Source of the DNA: Brachybacterium sp. YJGR34
GTDB taxonomy: Bacteria; Actinomycetota; Actinomycetes; Actinomycetales; Dermabacteraceae
Assembly: GCF_003347015.1 (NCBI RefSeq)
Contig: NZ_PNFB01000016.1
Location: forward strand, 31,502-95,501
Direction: 5' to 3'
DNA length: 64,000 bases
Shown here: piece by piece, positions 33,160 through 37,130 of the stretch
Layout: the number at the start of each line of letters is the position of its first letter
Position numbering within the stretch: position 1 is the stretch's first letter
Translations under genes and position numbers: made by a program
The notes under the pieces: model-generated
Seen by the model: only the letters and a program-made list of their open reading frames with translations
What the model was told of the DNA's origin: nothing
Database searches by the model: none

Positions 33160-33275
33160 CCCCAGCGGTCTCGCCGCCCACGGGCGCGCAGCGTGGCGAG
33201 TCAGGTCATGGTCCCGGGCGCCGCGGCCGCGCGGGGAGTGCTGGAGGGTCGGAGCTCCCTGGCAGACTGGACCCC

Positions 33276-35834
33276 ATGCCGATCCTCACGCCCTTCCTGC
33301 CCGAGAGCTCCGCCGATGCCGGACAGGACGCGATCGTCGACGGGTTCGTCGAGGCCCAGGAGTCCGTCGGCCGGACCCTCTACCCGCACCAGGAGGAGGC
33401 GCTGCTGGCCATCGCCGCGGGCGATCATGTCATCGCGGCCACGCCCACCGGCTCCGGCAAGACCACGATCGCCTACGCGGCCCTCTTCGCCGCCCTCGCC
33501 CGCGGCGAGCGCGCGTACTACACCGCACCGATCAAGGCGCTGGTGAGCGAGAAGTTCTTCGACCTGGTCGCCCAGTTCGGCGCGGAGAGCGTCGGCATGA
33601 TGACCGGCGACTCCTCCGTGAACCACGAGGCGCCGATCATCGTGTGCACGGCGGAGATCTTCGCGAACCACGCCCTGCGCGAGGGACCCACCAGCGAGGT
33701 GGGCCTCGCGGTGATGGACGAGTTCCACTACTACGGGGACCCGCAGCGCGGATGGGCCTGGCAGGTCCCGCTGATCGAGCTGCCCCGCTGCCAGTTCGTG
33801 CTCATGAGCGCGACCCTCGGCGACGTCACGCGCTTCGAGGAGGACCTCGAGGAGCGCACCGGGCGCGCCGTGTCCACGATCGACGACGCCCCGCGCCCGG
33901 TGCCGCTGGACTTCCGCTGGTCCCTGGAGCCGCTGCCGGACACGATCGCCACCATCCTGCAGGACCGCGATGCGCCGGTCTACATCGTCCACTTCACCCA
34001 GAAGGACGCGCTCGAGCAGGCCCAGGCGCTGCGGGGGCAGAAGATCCTCGCCGACGGCGAGAAGGAGCGGATCCGGGAGATCATCGGGGACTTCCGCTTC
34101 TCCCGCGGCTTCGGGCAGGTGCTCTCCGGCCTGGTGCGCGAGGGGATCGGGGTCCACCACGCCGGCATGCTGCCCAAGTACCGCCGCCTGGTGGAGAAGC
34201 TCGCCCAGTCCGGGCTGCTGAAGATCATCTGCGGCACCGACACGCTGGGGGTGGGCATCAATGTGCCGATCCGCACCGTGCTGCTCACCTCCCTGGCGAA
34301 GTTCGACGGCAAGCGGATGCGGCTGCTCAACGCCCGCGAGTTCCATCAGATCGCCGGGCGGGCGGGACGCGCCGGCTACGACACCGTGGGCCACGTCGTC
34401 GTGCAGGCGCCGCCGTGGACCATCGAGTTCGAGCGCGAACGGGCCAAGCAGCGCGCCCGCGAGGAGTCCGGCACAGCTCCCAACAGCGCCAAGAAGCGGA
34501 AGAAGGAGCCCAAGCCCCGCATCCCCGAGGGTGCCGTGAGCTGGTCCGAGGCGACCATGACCAAGCTGGTCGAGAACGCTCCCGAGCCGCTGCGCCCCCA
34601 CCTGAAGGTCACCGCCGGCATGGCCCTGGCGCTCATCGCCCGGCCCGGCGATGCGATCGCCGCGGGCCGCCACCTCATCCTCTCCAGCCATCAGACCAGG
34701 ACGCAGAAGCTCAAGCTGGTGCGCGAGGCGGTCGAGATCCTCCGCGGCCTGCGGGATGCGGAGATCATCGAGGTGCTCGAGGAGCCGGACCATCTGGGGC
34801 GCCGCTTCGCGCTGGTCGAGGACCTCCAGCTGGACTTCACCATGAACCAGCCGCTGGCCCCGTTCGCCATCGCGATGATCGACTCCCTCGACGAGGAGTC
34901 CGACTCCCTGACCCTGGACACCCTCTCGATCATCGAGGCGATCCTCGAGGATCCCCGTCAGATCCTCATGGCGCAGCTCAACGCGGCCAAGGGCGAGCTT
35001 CTCGCCGAGCTCAAGGCCGACGGCGTCGAGTACACCGAGCGCATGGCCCGGCTCGACGAGGTCACCTGGCCCAGGCCCCTCGAGGAGGATCTCGAGGCGG
35101 CCCTCGAGATCTATGCGCGCTCGCACCCCTGGGTGCGCGCCGACGACCTCTCCCCCAAGTCCGTGGTGCGCGAGATGTACGAGACCGGGCAGACCTTCAG
35201 CGAGTTCGTGCAGCGCTACGGCCTGCAGCGCTCCGAGGGCATCGTGCTGCGCTATCTCTCCGACGCCTACCAGGCGATGCGGCGCACGATCCCGCAGGAC
35301 CTGCGCACCGAGAGCCTCGACGACCTCATCGAGTGGCTGGGCGTGCTGGTGCGCGGCATCGACTCCTCGCTGCTGGACGAGTGGGAGGCGCTCTCCCATC
35401 CCGAGGAGCTCGAGGCCGACGGCGCCTCCGAGATCCGCCCCAGCACGCCGCGCGGACTCTCCGCCCAGACCAAGGTGCTGCGCACCATGGTGCGGGCCGC
35501 GATGTGGCAGCGCGTGGAGCACTTCGCCTTCGAGCGCGAGCAGCGTCTCGCCGAGCTCGACGGCGCCTCCGGTTGGGACCGGCCGCGCTGGGCGGAGGCC
35601 ATGGACGCCTACTACGACACCTACGACCACGTCGGCATCGACGGGCCGGCCCGCTCCCCGCAGCTGCTGCAGATCACCGAGGAGTCGCGGACCTGGCGGA
35701 TCCGCCAGGTCCTCGACGACCCCGATCGCCACCACGACTGGGCGATCGAGGCGGAGCTCGATCTCGAGGCGACCGACGAGGCCGGGGAGCCGGTGCTCGC
35801 CATCACCCGCGTGGGTGACCTCGCCGACCGCTGA
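33276..35834 (+). CDS. Ski2-like DEAD/DEAH-box helicase with DUF3516
   Basis: Large superfamily 2 helicase of 852 aa, probably acting on RNA. Walker A is AATPTGSGKTTIAYAALF (about 50-67), motif Ia is YYTAPIKALVSEKFFDL, the DExH-like box is MDEFHYY, motif III is LMSATLGDVTRFEEDL, and motifs V-VI are GTDTLGVGINVPIRTVL and EFHQIAGRAGRAGYDT. A Lys-rich linker (PNSAKKRKKEPKPR) follows. The C-terminal part (about 430-850) matches the DUF3516 region that defines this actinobacterial subgroup. No ribosome-binding site precedes the ATG. A bidirectional hairpin follows the stop. Confidence 0.9.
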   Translation: MPILTPFLPESSADAGQDAIVDGFVEAQESVGRTLYPHQEEALLAIAAGDHVIAATPTGSGKTTIAYAALFAALARGERAYYTAPIKALVSEKFFDLVAQFGAESVGMMTGDSSVNHEAPIIVCTAEIFANHALREGPTSEVGLAVMDEFHYYGDPQRGWAWQVPLIELPRCQFVLMSATLGDVTRFEEDLEERTGRAVSTIDDAPRPVPLDFRWSLEPLPDTIATILQDRDAPVYIVHFTQKDALEQAQALRGQKILADGEKERIREIIGDFRFSRGFGQVLSGLVREGIGVHHAGMLPKYRRLVEKLAQSGLLKIICGTDTLGVGINVPIRTVLLTSLAKFDGKRMRLLNAREFHQIAGRAGRAGYDTVGHVVVQAPPWTIEFERERAKQRAREESGTAPNSAKKRKKEPKPRIPEGAVSWSEATMTKLVENAPEPLRPHLKVTAGMALALIARPGDAIAAGRHLILSSHQTRTQKLKLVREAVEILRGLRDAEIIEVLEEPDHLGRRFALVEDLQLDFTMNQPLAPFAIAMIDSLDEESDSLTLDTLSIIEAILEDPRQILMAQLNAAKGELLAELKADGVEYTERMARLDEVTWPRPLEEDLEAALEIYARSHPWVRADDLSPKSVVREMYETGQTFSEFVQRYGLQRSEGIVLRYLSDAYQAMRRTIPQDLRTESLDDLIEWLGVLVRGIDSSLLDEWEALSHPEELEADGASEIRPSTPRGLSAQTKVLRTMVRAAMWQRVEHFAFEREQRLAELDGASGWDRPRWAEAMDAYYDTYDHVGIDGPARSPQLLQITEESRTWRIRQVLDDPDRHHDWAIEAELDLEATDEAGEPVLAITRVGDLADR

Positions 35835-35854
35835 GGCAGCCGGTCGTCGGCGCG

Positions 35855-35889
35855 ATGGAGGCCGGCACCACCAGGGTGCCGGCCTCCAT
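35855..35889. terminator. Bidirectional terminator between helicase and repeat-peptide gene
   Basis: ATGGAGGCCGGCACC (35855-35869) pairs perfectly with 35875-35889 around a 5-base loop. It sits between convergent genes, 20 bases past the helicase stop. Confidence 0.85.
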
Positions 35890-35898
35890 CACGTCCGC

Positions 35899-35917
35899 GC
35901 CGACCCCGAGGGTCGGC
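35899..35917 (-). terminator. Second hairpin after the repeat-peptide gene
   Basis: GCCGACCC (35899-35906) pairs with GGGTCGGC (35910-35917) around CGA; flanking GTCCGC and GCGGAC extend it with a 3-base bulge. It begins directly after the TAG stop of the minus-strand gene. Confidence 0.65.
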
Positions 35918-35925
35918 GGTGCGGA

Positions 35926-36210
35926 CTACTGCGGGTTCACCTCGACGGCCAAGGTGACGCCGCGCTGCGGGTTCACCTCGACGTACTGCGGGTTCACCTC
36001 GACACGCTGCGGGTTGACCTCGACGCGCTGCGGGTTCACCTCGACGAAGGAGCGGAGACTCCGCTGCGGATTGACCTCGACAGCCGAGGCGGCACCCGCA
36101 CCCGCCAGTCCGAGGGACAGGACGAACGCGGCACCCACGGCGGCACGCGCCGTGCGTCCGAGCCGTCGACGCGGGCGGGACGGCGGAAACTCTTCGGAAG
36201 CAGGATTCAC
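35926..36210 (-). CDS. Small secreted protein with six VEVNPQ repeats
   Basis: Predicted exported protein of 94 aa that I do not recognise. GTG 36210 has a GAGAGGA site about 8 nt upstream; a longer frame to 36297 lacks such support. Residues 12-22 are basic, 23-41 hydrophobic and ASA (41-43) is a good signal-peptidase I site. The predicted mature part is 51 aa and consists of VEVNPQ at 44-49, 56-61, 63-68, 70-75, 77-82 and 89-94. Linkers are R, R and Y between the middle repeats, and RSLRSF and RGVTLA at the ends. The last repeat is followed immediately by the stop. No cysteine, aromatic-rich patch or sorting signal is present. It may be a precursor of short peptides or a beta-strand surface polymer; both are guesses. 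Two hairpins flank its 3' end, supporting a real transcription unit. Confidence 0.75.
   Translation of the reverse strand: MNPASEEFPPSRPRRRLGRTARAAVGAAFVLSLGLAGAGAASAVEVNPQRSLRSFVEVNPQRVEVNPQRVEVNPQYVEVNPQRGVTLAVEVNPQ
35929..36081 (-). repeat. Six 18-bp coding repeats
   Basis: Units at 35929-35946, 35965-35982, 35986-36003, 36007-36024, 36028-36045 and 36064-36081. Four are identical at the DNA level (plus strand CTGCGGGTTCACCTCGAC); two differ at one or two bases. All encode VEVNPQ. Near-identity at synonymous sites suggests recent expansion or ongoing homogenisation. Confidence 0.95.
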
Positions 36211-36349
36211 GGTGGGGTCCTCTCGAGGGAGACGAGCACCGGCTCCGGCGCCCGCAGCCTCAGGATAGCCCCGCAGCACTCTCGGCAAAAGGGGCATTCC
36301 CGGCCGAACCGGAATCGTCCCGATCAGCCCTGCCGGTGGTCACCGCACC

Positions 36350-36398: not shown

Positions 36399-37130
36399 TC
36401 AGTACTTCACCTTCTCCCAGCCCCGCCGCTCGGCCTCCTTGCGGGGGTCCTTGCTGCGGTAGACGATGTACGGCCTGGTCAGATAGCCGAGCGGGGCGGC
36501 GAAGACGTGCACCAGGCGCGTGAACGGCCAGATCCCGAACAGCAGCAGCGCGGAGAGGATGTGCAGCTGGAAGAAGATCGGCGCCTGCCCCATCAGCTCC
36601 GGATCGGGTCGCAGGGTCCAGAACTCTCGGAACCAGATCGAGACGCCCTCGCGGTAGTCGTATGTGCCGAGGGCCGAGTGCACGATCGTGGCGAGCAGGC
36701 CGAACAGGATCGTCAGCGACAGCATCAGGTACATCAGCTTGTCCCCCGCCGTGGTGGCGCCGAAGACCCGGGTGTTGGTGCGCCGCCGGTACAGGAGGAT
36801 CAGCAGCCCGCCCACGCAGGCCACGGCCGCGGCGAGCCCGATGGTGATCGCCATGAGGTGGTACAGATGATCGCTGACCCCCAGGAACTCCGTCCAGGAC
36901 TTCGGGATGCCGAGGCCCACCACATGGCCGAAGAAGATGCCGATGATCCCGAAGTGGAACAGCGGCGAACCGATCGACAGCAGGCGCGACTCGTAGATCT
37001 GGCTGGAGCGGGTGGTCCAGCCGAAGCGGTCCGCGCGGAAGCGCCACACGTGCCCGAGCACGAACACGGCGAGCACCATGTACGGCAGCACCACCCACAG
37101 CAGCAGGTCGAGCGTCGAGACGTCGGTCAT
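36399..37130 (-). CDS. narI: Respiratory nitrate reductase gamma subunit
   Basis: Membrane cytochrome b subunit that oxidises menaquinol and passes electrons to NarH. The 243-aa protein has five membrane helices. The heme ligands are all present: His59 and His69 in LFHFGIIGIFFGH, and His190 and His208 in FFQLHILSALLLF and WPFTRLVHVF. The start overlaps the narJ stop (ATGA). It is the last gene of the narGHJI operon. Confidence 0.97.
   Translation of the reverse strand: MTDVSTLDLLLWVVLPYMVLAVFVLGHVWRFRADRFGWTTRSSQIYESRLLSIGSPLFHFGIIGIFFGHVVGLGIPKSWTEFLGVSDHLYHLMAITIGLAAAVACVGGLLILLYRRRTNTRVFGATTAGDKLMYLMLSLTILFGLLATIVHSALGTYDYREGVSIWFREFWTLRPDPELMGQAPIFFQLHILSALLLFGIWPFTRLVHVFAAPLGYLTRPYIVYRSKDPRKEAERRGWEKVKY

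Follow-up and report, generated by a model that had tools for sequence, protein, structure and literature searches.

In the genomes compared, a family of array genes was found to be restricted to one branch of the genus Brachybacterium. Each gene encodes a small, predicted-secreted protein in which 3 to 13 related hexapeptide units follow a signal peptide. Comparison of the units indicated that the hexapeptide is under purifying selection and that it takes the form of lineage-specific dialects. As a tentative interpretation, held at somewhat less than even confidence, we propose that the array gene encodes a multi-copy precursor of a secreted hexapeptide, with signalling as its likely use. In the species of the window (the whole 64-kb stretch of Brachybacterium sp. 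YJGR34 DNA analysed here), the peptide would be VEVNPQ. The array gene of the window and the features around it were as follows.

33231..35834, plus strand: DEAD/DUF3516 helicase gene, convergent with the array gene and its constant neighbour (Pfam)
35851..35893, no strand: inverted repeat of 19 nt, 95% complementary, with a 5-nt loop, between the convergent stops (from the sequence)
35926..36210, minus strand: hexapeptide-array gene of 94 codons and a stop, with GTG as its start codon
36082..36210, minus strand: predicted signal peptide of 43 residues, RRR...GAGAASA (by inspection and conservation in the alignment of relatives)
36064..36081, minus strand: unit 1, VEVNPQ (sequence match)
36028..36045, minus strand: unit 2, VEVNPQ (sequence match)
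36007..36024, minus strand: unit 3, VEVNPQ (sequence match)
35986..36003, minus strand: unit 4, VEVNPQ (sequence match)
35965..35982, minus strand: unit 5, VEVNPQ (sequence match)
35929..35946, minus strand: unit 6, VEVNPQ, the last residues of the protein (sequence match)
36262..36290, minus strand: candidate promoter, TTTTGC (36290-36285), 17 nt, TATCCT (36267-36262) (read by eye)
36399..37130, minus strand: narI (nitrate reductase gamma), upstream neighbour of the array gene (Pfam)

The GTG start codon at 36210 was shortly preceded by GAGAGGA, and the GAGAASA end of the signal peptide abutted the first unit. With RSLRSF, R, R, Y and RGVTLA as linkers, the remainder of the protein had the layout VEVNPQ-RSLRSF-VEVNPQ-R-VEVNPQ-R-VEVNPQ-Y-VEVNPQ-RGVTLA-VEVNPQ. 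The preliminary description was thereby borne out in its account of six VEVNPQ units behind an ASA-ending signal peptide (a predicted one), of linkers consisting of R, R, Y or six residues starting with R, of four units identical in DNA and of a last unit that forms the end of the protein; it named no strand, and the gene is on the minus strand. When up to two mismatches were allowed, the unit DNA matched six times in the 64 kb, always within the array gene and on the minus strand, compared with a mean of 0.03 matches in 100 dinucleotide-preserving shuffles. All 13 base differences between the six units were in third positions of the VEVNPQ frame. The same bias was observed within the arrays of all relatives, where 526 of the 690 base differences between units were in third, 117 in second and 47 in first positions. 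A frame on the opposite strand (35855-36268) is also open, but a chance open frame was ruled out by this third-position bias in the VEVNPQ frame.

The window protein and P0002 scored under every curated Pfam cut-off, as did both of these and P0004 in NCBIfam, in agreement with the preliminary description, which knew of no described family with this repeat. Membership of a known family was rejected, as the weak rows obtained (a reovirus domain, YmdB and TIGR00282 among them) were far under cut-off. The string VEVNPQ was not found in the literature within the scope of our search, and a search on secreted repeat proteins of Brachybacterium (titles and abstract starts) returned nothing about such arrays. 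What appears to be new here is an array family with no matching family model, together with a unit, VEVNPQ, with no match in the literature searched.

The preliminary description had tied its claim to conservation of the repeats in close relatives and to an unbroken frame in other strains, and had suggested that copy number may vary. Array relatives were detected in 19 of 38 Brachybacterium genomes by a protein search of the genus and a profile search, and the gene was not confined to one genome. According to the coordinates, the array was convergent with the helicase gene in all 19. The C-terminal part of the helicase was found in 37 of the 38 genomes (G029 had no match). In a tree of this part (37 genomes, midpoint root, moderate fork support of 93/85), all array genomes were placed in one branch of 22 genomes, with the array present in 19 of the 22 genomes inside and in none of the 15 outside. 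The branch genomes without an array were G002, G015 and G016. Neither three NP-type units nor a repeated unit was found near the helicase end in 18 of the 19 array-less genomes, while two positive controls were detected. A diverged array copy at the same site was rejected, with nothing similar around the helicase end in these 18 genomes (the nineteenth being G029, with no helicase match).

No array gene was confirmed in the nine genomes of other genera of the family among the 47 genomes searched with the profile; the only match there, in G044 (E 8.5e-5), had no units where it was read. Among 396 genomes sampled from the order, 17 had a match at E ≤ 1e-5, 13 of them in the genus and four outside; none of these four was a small secreted array, in a search that scored at most 13 candidates per genome and may miss distant members. 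A database of 5.8 billion proteins yielded 15 proteins with the profile, including the window's own, and the signal peptide and units were the same in every one. An intact frame, with the start codon behind a GAGAGGA/GAAAGG-like site, was present in 17 of the 19 array genes, so that the expectation of an unbroken frame held except in two. The frame of G027 had no in-frame start, and in this genome (L044) the protease described below was also divided between two frames; these defects may reflect either low assembly quality or decay. The array gene of G036 was the most divergent and had no clear start. Copy number varied as anticipated, with five units in G004 and, by our count, seven or eight in the close database relatives P0013-P0016 and P0009.

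In the window, the array gene sits behind the narGHJI genes. A scan for consensus promoters found none at the array gene of the window. The candidate promoter read by eye was in register with conserved TATTCT-like boxes of the relatives in an upstream alignment, and such a box was common to the upstream regions of 17 array genes. No terminator was found at the window array with a T-run rule; the inverted repeat at 35851..35893 could possibly serve as a two-way terminator without a T run. A palindrome matching TGTGA-N6-TCACA at 8 or more of 10 positions was present in 11 of the 17 upstream regions (with mononucleotide shuffling as the control), at -77 to -86 from the array start, and was perfect (10/10) in G004 and G025. 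The other six regions, including that of the window's gene (5/10 matches), had no palindrome. TGTGA-N6-TCACA is the half-site pattern of CRP-type regulators. The window's genome encoded one protein with a cNMP-binding domain above cut-off, and regulation of the array by a CRP-type, cNMP-binding protein is predicted.

By our unit rule, the 19 genes contained 123 units: 40 VEVNPQ, 26 VEINPQ, 14 VEVNPW, 8 IETNPL, 7 VQINPQ, 6 IETNPQ, 6 IQGNPQ and rarer others. The largest array consisted of 13 VEVNPQ units (G028) and the shortest of three units (G014). The rule fixes P at position 5, which is thus invariant by definition; position 4 was N in 119 and position 2 was E or Q in 121 of the 123 units. 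Whole arrays differed together, as in G030 with VEINPQ and its tree neighbour G003 with VQINPQ. Mixed arrays were observed as well: G025 combined IETNPL, its commonest unit, with IETNPQ, G008 contained VEVNPQ, PEVNPQ and VEVNPL, and the arrays of G009 and G024 ended in IWGNPQ. Within genes, 479 codon differences between units were synonymous and 137 non-synonymous (123 units, 19 genes). The corresponding pS was 0.339 and pN 0.032, a pN/pS of about 0.09 in which pN is biased low, since the rule admits related hexapeptides only, although the linkers beyond the units do vary freely. Between genes, pN was 0.178. Eight of the 19 genes had only synonymous differences between their units, and in both G026 and G027 all five DNA copies were distinct while encoding VEVNPW throughout. 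Since the differences are mostly synonymous, the peptide itself appears to be under selection, and since the units are alike in protein while their DNA has diverged, recent copying alone is not enough to explain their uniformity. As far as the comparison of units goes, the pattern is what a recognised peptide, or else a repeat that is homogenised while under selection, would show.

These results also bear on the reading of the array as nothing more than a rapidly expanding coding repeat, carried by a secreted protein that the cell can do without, with a unit of no specific function. Such a repeat could well vary in copy number and be absent from three genomes of the branch (G002, G015 and G016) and everywhere outside it. 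We consider it very improbable, because selection on the peptide is required to account for the low within-gene pN/pS and for the differences confined to third positions in 8 of the 19 genes, and because the upstream box and palindrome are conserved. As a separate observation, the Asn codon of the units was AAT in 37 of 119 cases, compared with 4 of 65 Asn codons in four long reading frames from the window (p 7e-5); here the units came from 19 genomes and the control frames from one, and one of these frames includes the stretch before the true helicase start. The AAT excess may hint at synonymous diversification.

The first unit lay directly behind an AxA-type end (ASA, AAA or AGA) in 18 of the 19 genes, and the last unit was the C-terminus in 14. 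At the 104 junctions between units (19 genes), the linker comprised no residue in 49 cases, one in 25, six in 19, two in five, four in three and seven in three. The unit was followed by K at 18 junctions, by A at 10, by F at nine and by R at seven. The preliminary description had likened the protein to precursors cut at single arginines. Given the many junctions without a linker and the rarity of R, such cutting was rejected as the rule of the family. The E of the unit was considered as the cut site of a Glu-specific protease and not retained, since G036 (IQGNPQ) has no such E yet has the protease; G003 (VQINPQ) has neither. No cleavage site common to all members was seen in the 19 genes.

A further proposal of the preliminary description was a beta-strand fibre. 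As a surface or matrix polymer, V-E-V-N-P-Q would be a strand-turn unit able to assemble with itself or to adhere to a surface, and its copy number would set the length. The alternating V-x-V and the N-P turn would suit this role in a small predicted-secreted repeat protein, and the six-residue linkers (19/104) and abutting units (49/104) preserve a register of six residues in some members of the family. The register is, however, broken by the single-residue linkers (25/104) and by the linkers of two, four and seven residues (11 more), and an array can be as short as the three units of G014. No sortase motif, LPxTG-type tail or C-terminal anchor was seen when the array alignment was read by eye, and 14 of the 19 arrays end in a unit. 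The AlphaFold2 model of the window protein was disordered and without strand (mean pLDDT 50, pTM 0.13), which weighs little against a strand or fibre because it was built on a shallow 12-row alignment. The fibre stands as a rival that we regard as improbable, while a regular fold is opposed by linker lengths of 0, 1, 2, 4, 6 or 7 and by the pLDDT of 50.

A gene for a secreted protease that comprises a propeptide and an S1 domain was present in 22 of the 38 genomes. The protease matched the solved S1 structures 3wy8 (E 6e-71) and 3cp7 (E 1.8e-65) and scored just under the Pfam Trypsin_2 cut-off (27.1 vs 27.6 bits). Its gene was located directly upstream of the array in nine genomes and across the helicase gene in five; the other eight protease genomes had no array. 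No such protease was found in the window's genome at E ≤ 1e-8, which is one of five array genomes out of 19 without it. When the 47 family genomes were searched with the array profile, 14 of the 18 hits that lay outside array genes fell on the signal peptide of this enzyme: 13 overlapped its own protease match, and one (G017) was just upstream of it. As far as they were read, the other four (G002, G023, G034 and G044) were unrelated. This 3WY8-like protease (AL20 / 3WY8 S1 proteases; PDB 3cp7, 3wy8) has the signal peptide most closely related to that of the array, whereas the array has no protease domain and shares with these enzymes only the signal peptide, plus one hexapeptide in G028. The protease was close to the array in 14 of the 22 branch genomes and also occurred in 7 of the 15 genomes outside the branch. 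It is therefore likely to be older than the array, and its secretion signal was probably taken over by the array gene.

In G028 (L038, complement strand), beside the 13-unit array, the protease propeptide contained IPAVEVNPQAD about 20 residues before the mature domain, and the propeptide of G024 had the near form IPAVEVDPQVR. Of the 22 protease matches, one thus had VEVNPQ in its propeptide and another a near form of it, and no NPW was found in the protease propeptides of the VEVNPW genomes. A degenerate DNA pattern encoding V[EQ][VI]NP[QWR] was matched at four sites of the 38 genomes that lay outside arrays (G001, G005, G022 and G028), and a reversed control pattern at none. The matches in G001, on the opposite strand of a cytochrome oxidase gene, and in G005, inside a membrane protein, were read as chance.

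Because of the shared signal peptide, the strongest rival explanation is that the array acts on the secreted S1 protease encoded nearby, as its decoy or inhibitor. The array would be an offshoot of the protease 5' end (from the signal peptide and possibly some of the propeptide), and its repeated unit would occupy the protease or the latter's propeptide partner. The 14 profile matches at the protease signal peptide, the position of the protease next to the array or across the helicase gene, its greater age and the hexapeptides in the propeptides of G028 and G024 fit this explanation. So does the retention of the array in all 14 branch genomes with the protease compared with 5 of 8 without (p 0.036), although this counts genomes and not independent events. 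Yet five genomes, including the window's, keep the array without the protease, VEVNPQ or its near form is found in only two of 22 propeptides, and the unit dialects do not visibly track changes in the propeptide. We consider a decoy unlikely, though deserving of attention.

The idea of a multi-copy peptide precursor can be compared with known systems. The precursors of yeast alpha-factor and of neuropeptides have a signal peptide and many copies of one short peptide that is uniform in each gene but varies from species to species. Unlike these, the array is bacterial, has no dibasic or constant spacer, and its units often abut. The nearest parallel in operation is with the RRNPPA quorum-sensing propeptides of Bacillota (Phr, AimP, NprX and PapR). 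They are described, in sections of PMC11343458 and PMC9765709, as short Sec-exported propeptides that may contain the mature peptide in repeats and are processed by proteases outside the cell. The mature peptide has 5-7 residues, some propeptides contain several identical or near-identical copies, and variation between lineages takes the form of dialects (same sections). The array resembles them in its dialects and in its short propeptide with predicted Sec export, as seen in the 94-residue window protein (signal peptide by inspection and conservation). RRNPP propeptides are defined by a TPR gene next door in a section of PMC10075063. No TPR gene was found beside the window array (Pfam domains, E ≤ 0.001); its neighbours are the helicase gene and narI, and in nine relatives the S1 protease is upstream. 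In contrast to RRNPPA propeptides, the array also has up to 13 copies, a host in Actinomycetota, no visible sequence relation and no common cleavage site. As no adjoining TPR gene was found, we suggest that the array works like RRNPPA propeptides at most and do not file it among them.

As a precursor, the small protein would be exported by the Sec route. Signal peptidase would cut before the first unit, as suggested by the AxA-type end directly ahead of this unit in 18 of the 19 genes. Extracellular proteases would then release units or short concatemers, in most relatives perhaps by means of the neighbouring S1 serine protease, and cells of the same species would recognise their own dialect. 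In a weaker form, which fits equally well, the uncut array itself would be a multivalent ligand. Freely varying linker lengths and sequences would be expected if the working part is the unit rather than the complete array. Also in favour are the 14 of 19 arrays that stop exactly at the end of a unit and a copy number that changes between near relatives. Given its uniform units, their dialects and the selection on the unit, a multi-copy precursor, as raised in the preliminary description, remained the best reading, albeit a tentative one. Several points count against it: no receptor, transporter or maturation enzyme could be tied to the array, the adjoining TPR gene appears to be absent in the window, not all arrays are uniform, five of the 19 genomes seem to lack the protease, and the members share no apparent cleavage site. 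Moreover, one would also expect uniform units if the array were a polymer or a multivalent binder.

Perfect tandem hexapeptides were also observed between the N-terminal domain and the subtilase domain of S8 subtilases, in all nine proteins read (L192 8948-10513 and 10518-12854 in G144; L193 in G090; L194-L200). Their units were IETNPL, IETNPF, TRSNPF, GTRTNPY (seven residues), MYDGHP, LYDGHP, FWVGHP, FWGGHP and GYGDGV, uniform within a protein and different between genera. The gene next to the G144 subtilase encodes a CHAT domain, and G090 has a homologue of this CHAT gene. Partial matches to it were found beside L195 and L198 and none beside the other five (1.5-kb flanks). The S8-CHAT proteins resemble the arrays in their perfect short tandem repeats, and the G144 unit IETNPL is the commonest unit of the G025 array. 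They differ in that the S8-CHAT protein has 520 residues, no evident signal peptide and repeats before a subtilase domain, with no other relation to the array; the shared IETNPL is likely convergence. When the part of the S8 protein that carries the repeats was searched against a database, there was no match at E ≤ 0.001, and a literature search on CHAT with S8 repeats found nothing on such genes. Another NP repeat, a long EVETNP run in the C-terminal part of a WYL-type frame (L190, G238), looks like a low-complexity expansion.

A more far-reaching scenario, which we consider doubtful and quite improbable as a whole, is that one branch of the genus turned a protease secretion signal into a carrier of a species-specific hexapeptide in up to 13 copies, protease-matured where the enzyme was kept, tuned by a CRP-like regulator and with a dialect per lineage, and that the same idea, of a protease next to a uniform and lineage-specific hexapeptide array, arose again in the S8-CHAT genes of other actinobacteria.

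Short peptide signals that mature from propeptides encoded by genes have mainly been described in Bacillota. The known signals of Actinomycetota are typically enzyme-made small molecules, according to part of PMC10075063. If the array is a multi-copy precursor, its peptide is probably a signal, and these branch-wide, predicted-secreted arrays with their dialects would be a tractable candidate for peptide communication in Actinomycetota: the predicted peptide has six residues and can be purchased, and the 19 genomes provide 19 predicted dialects that can be compared against each other.
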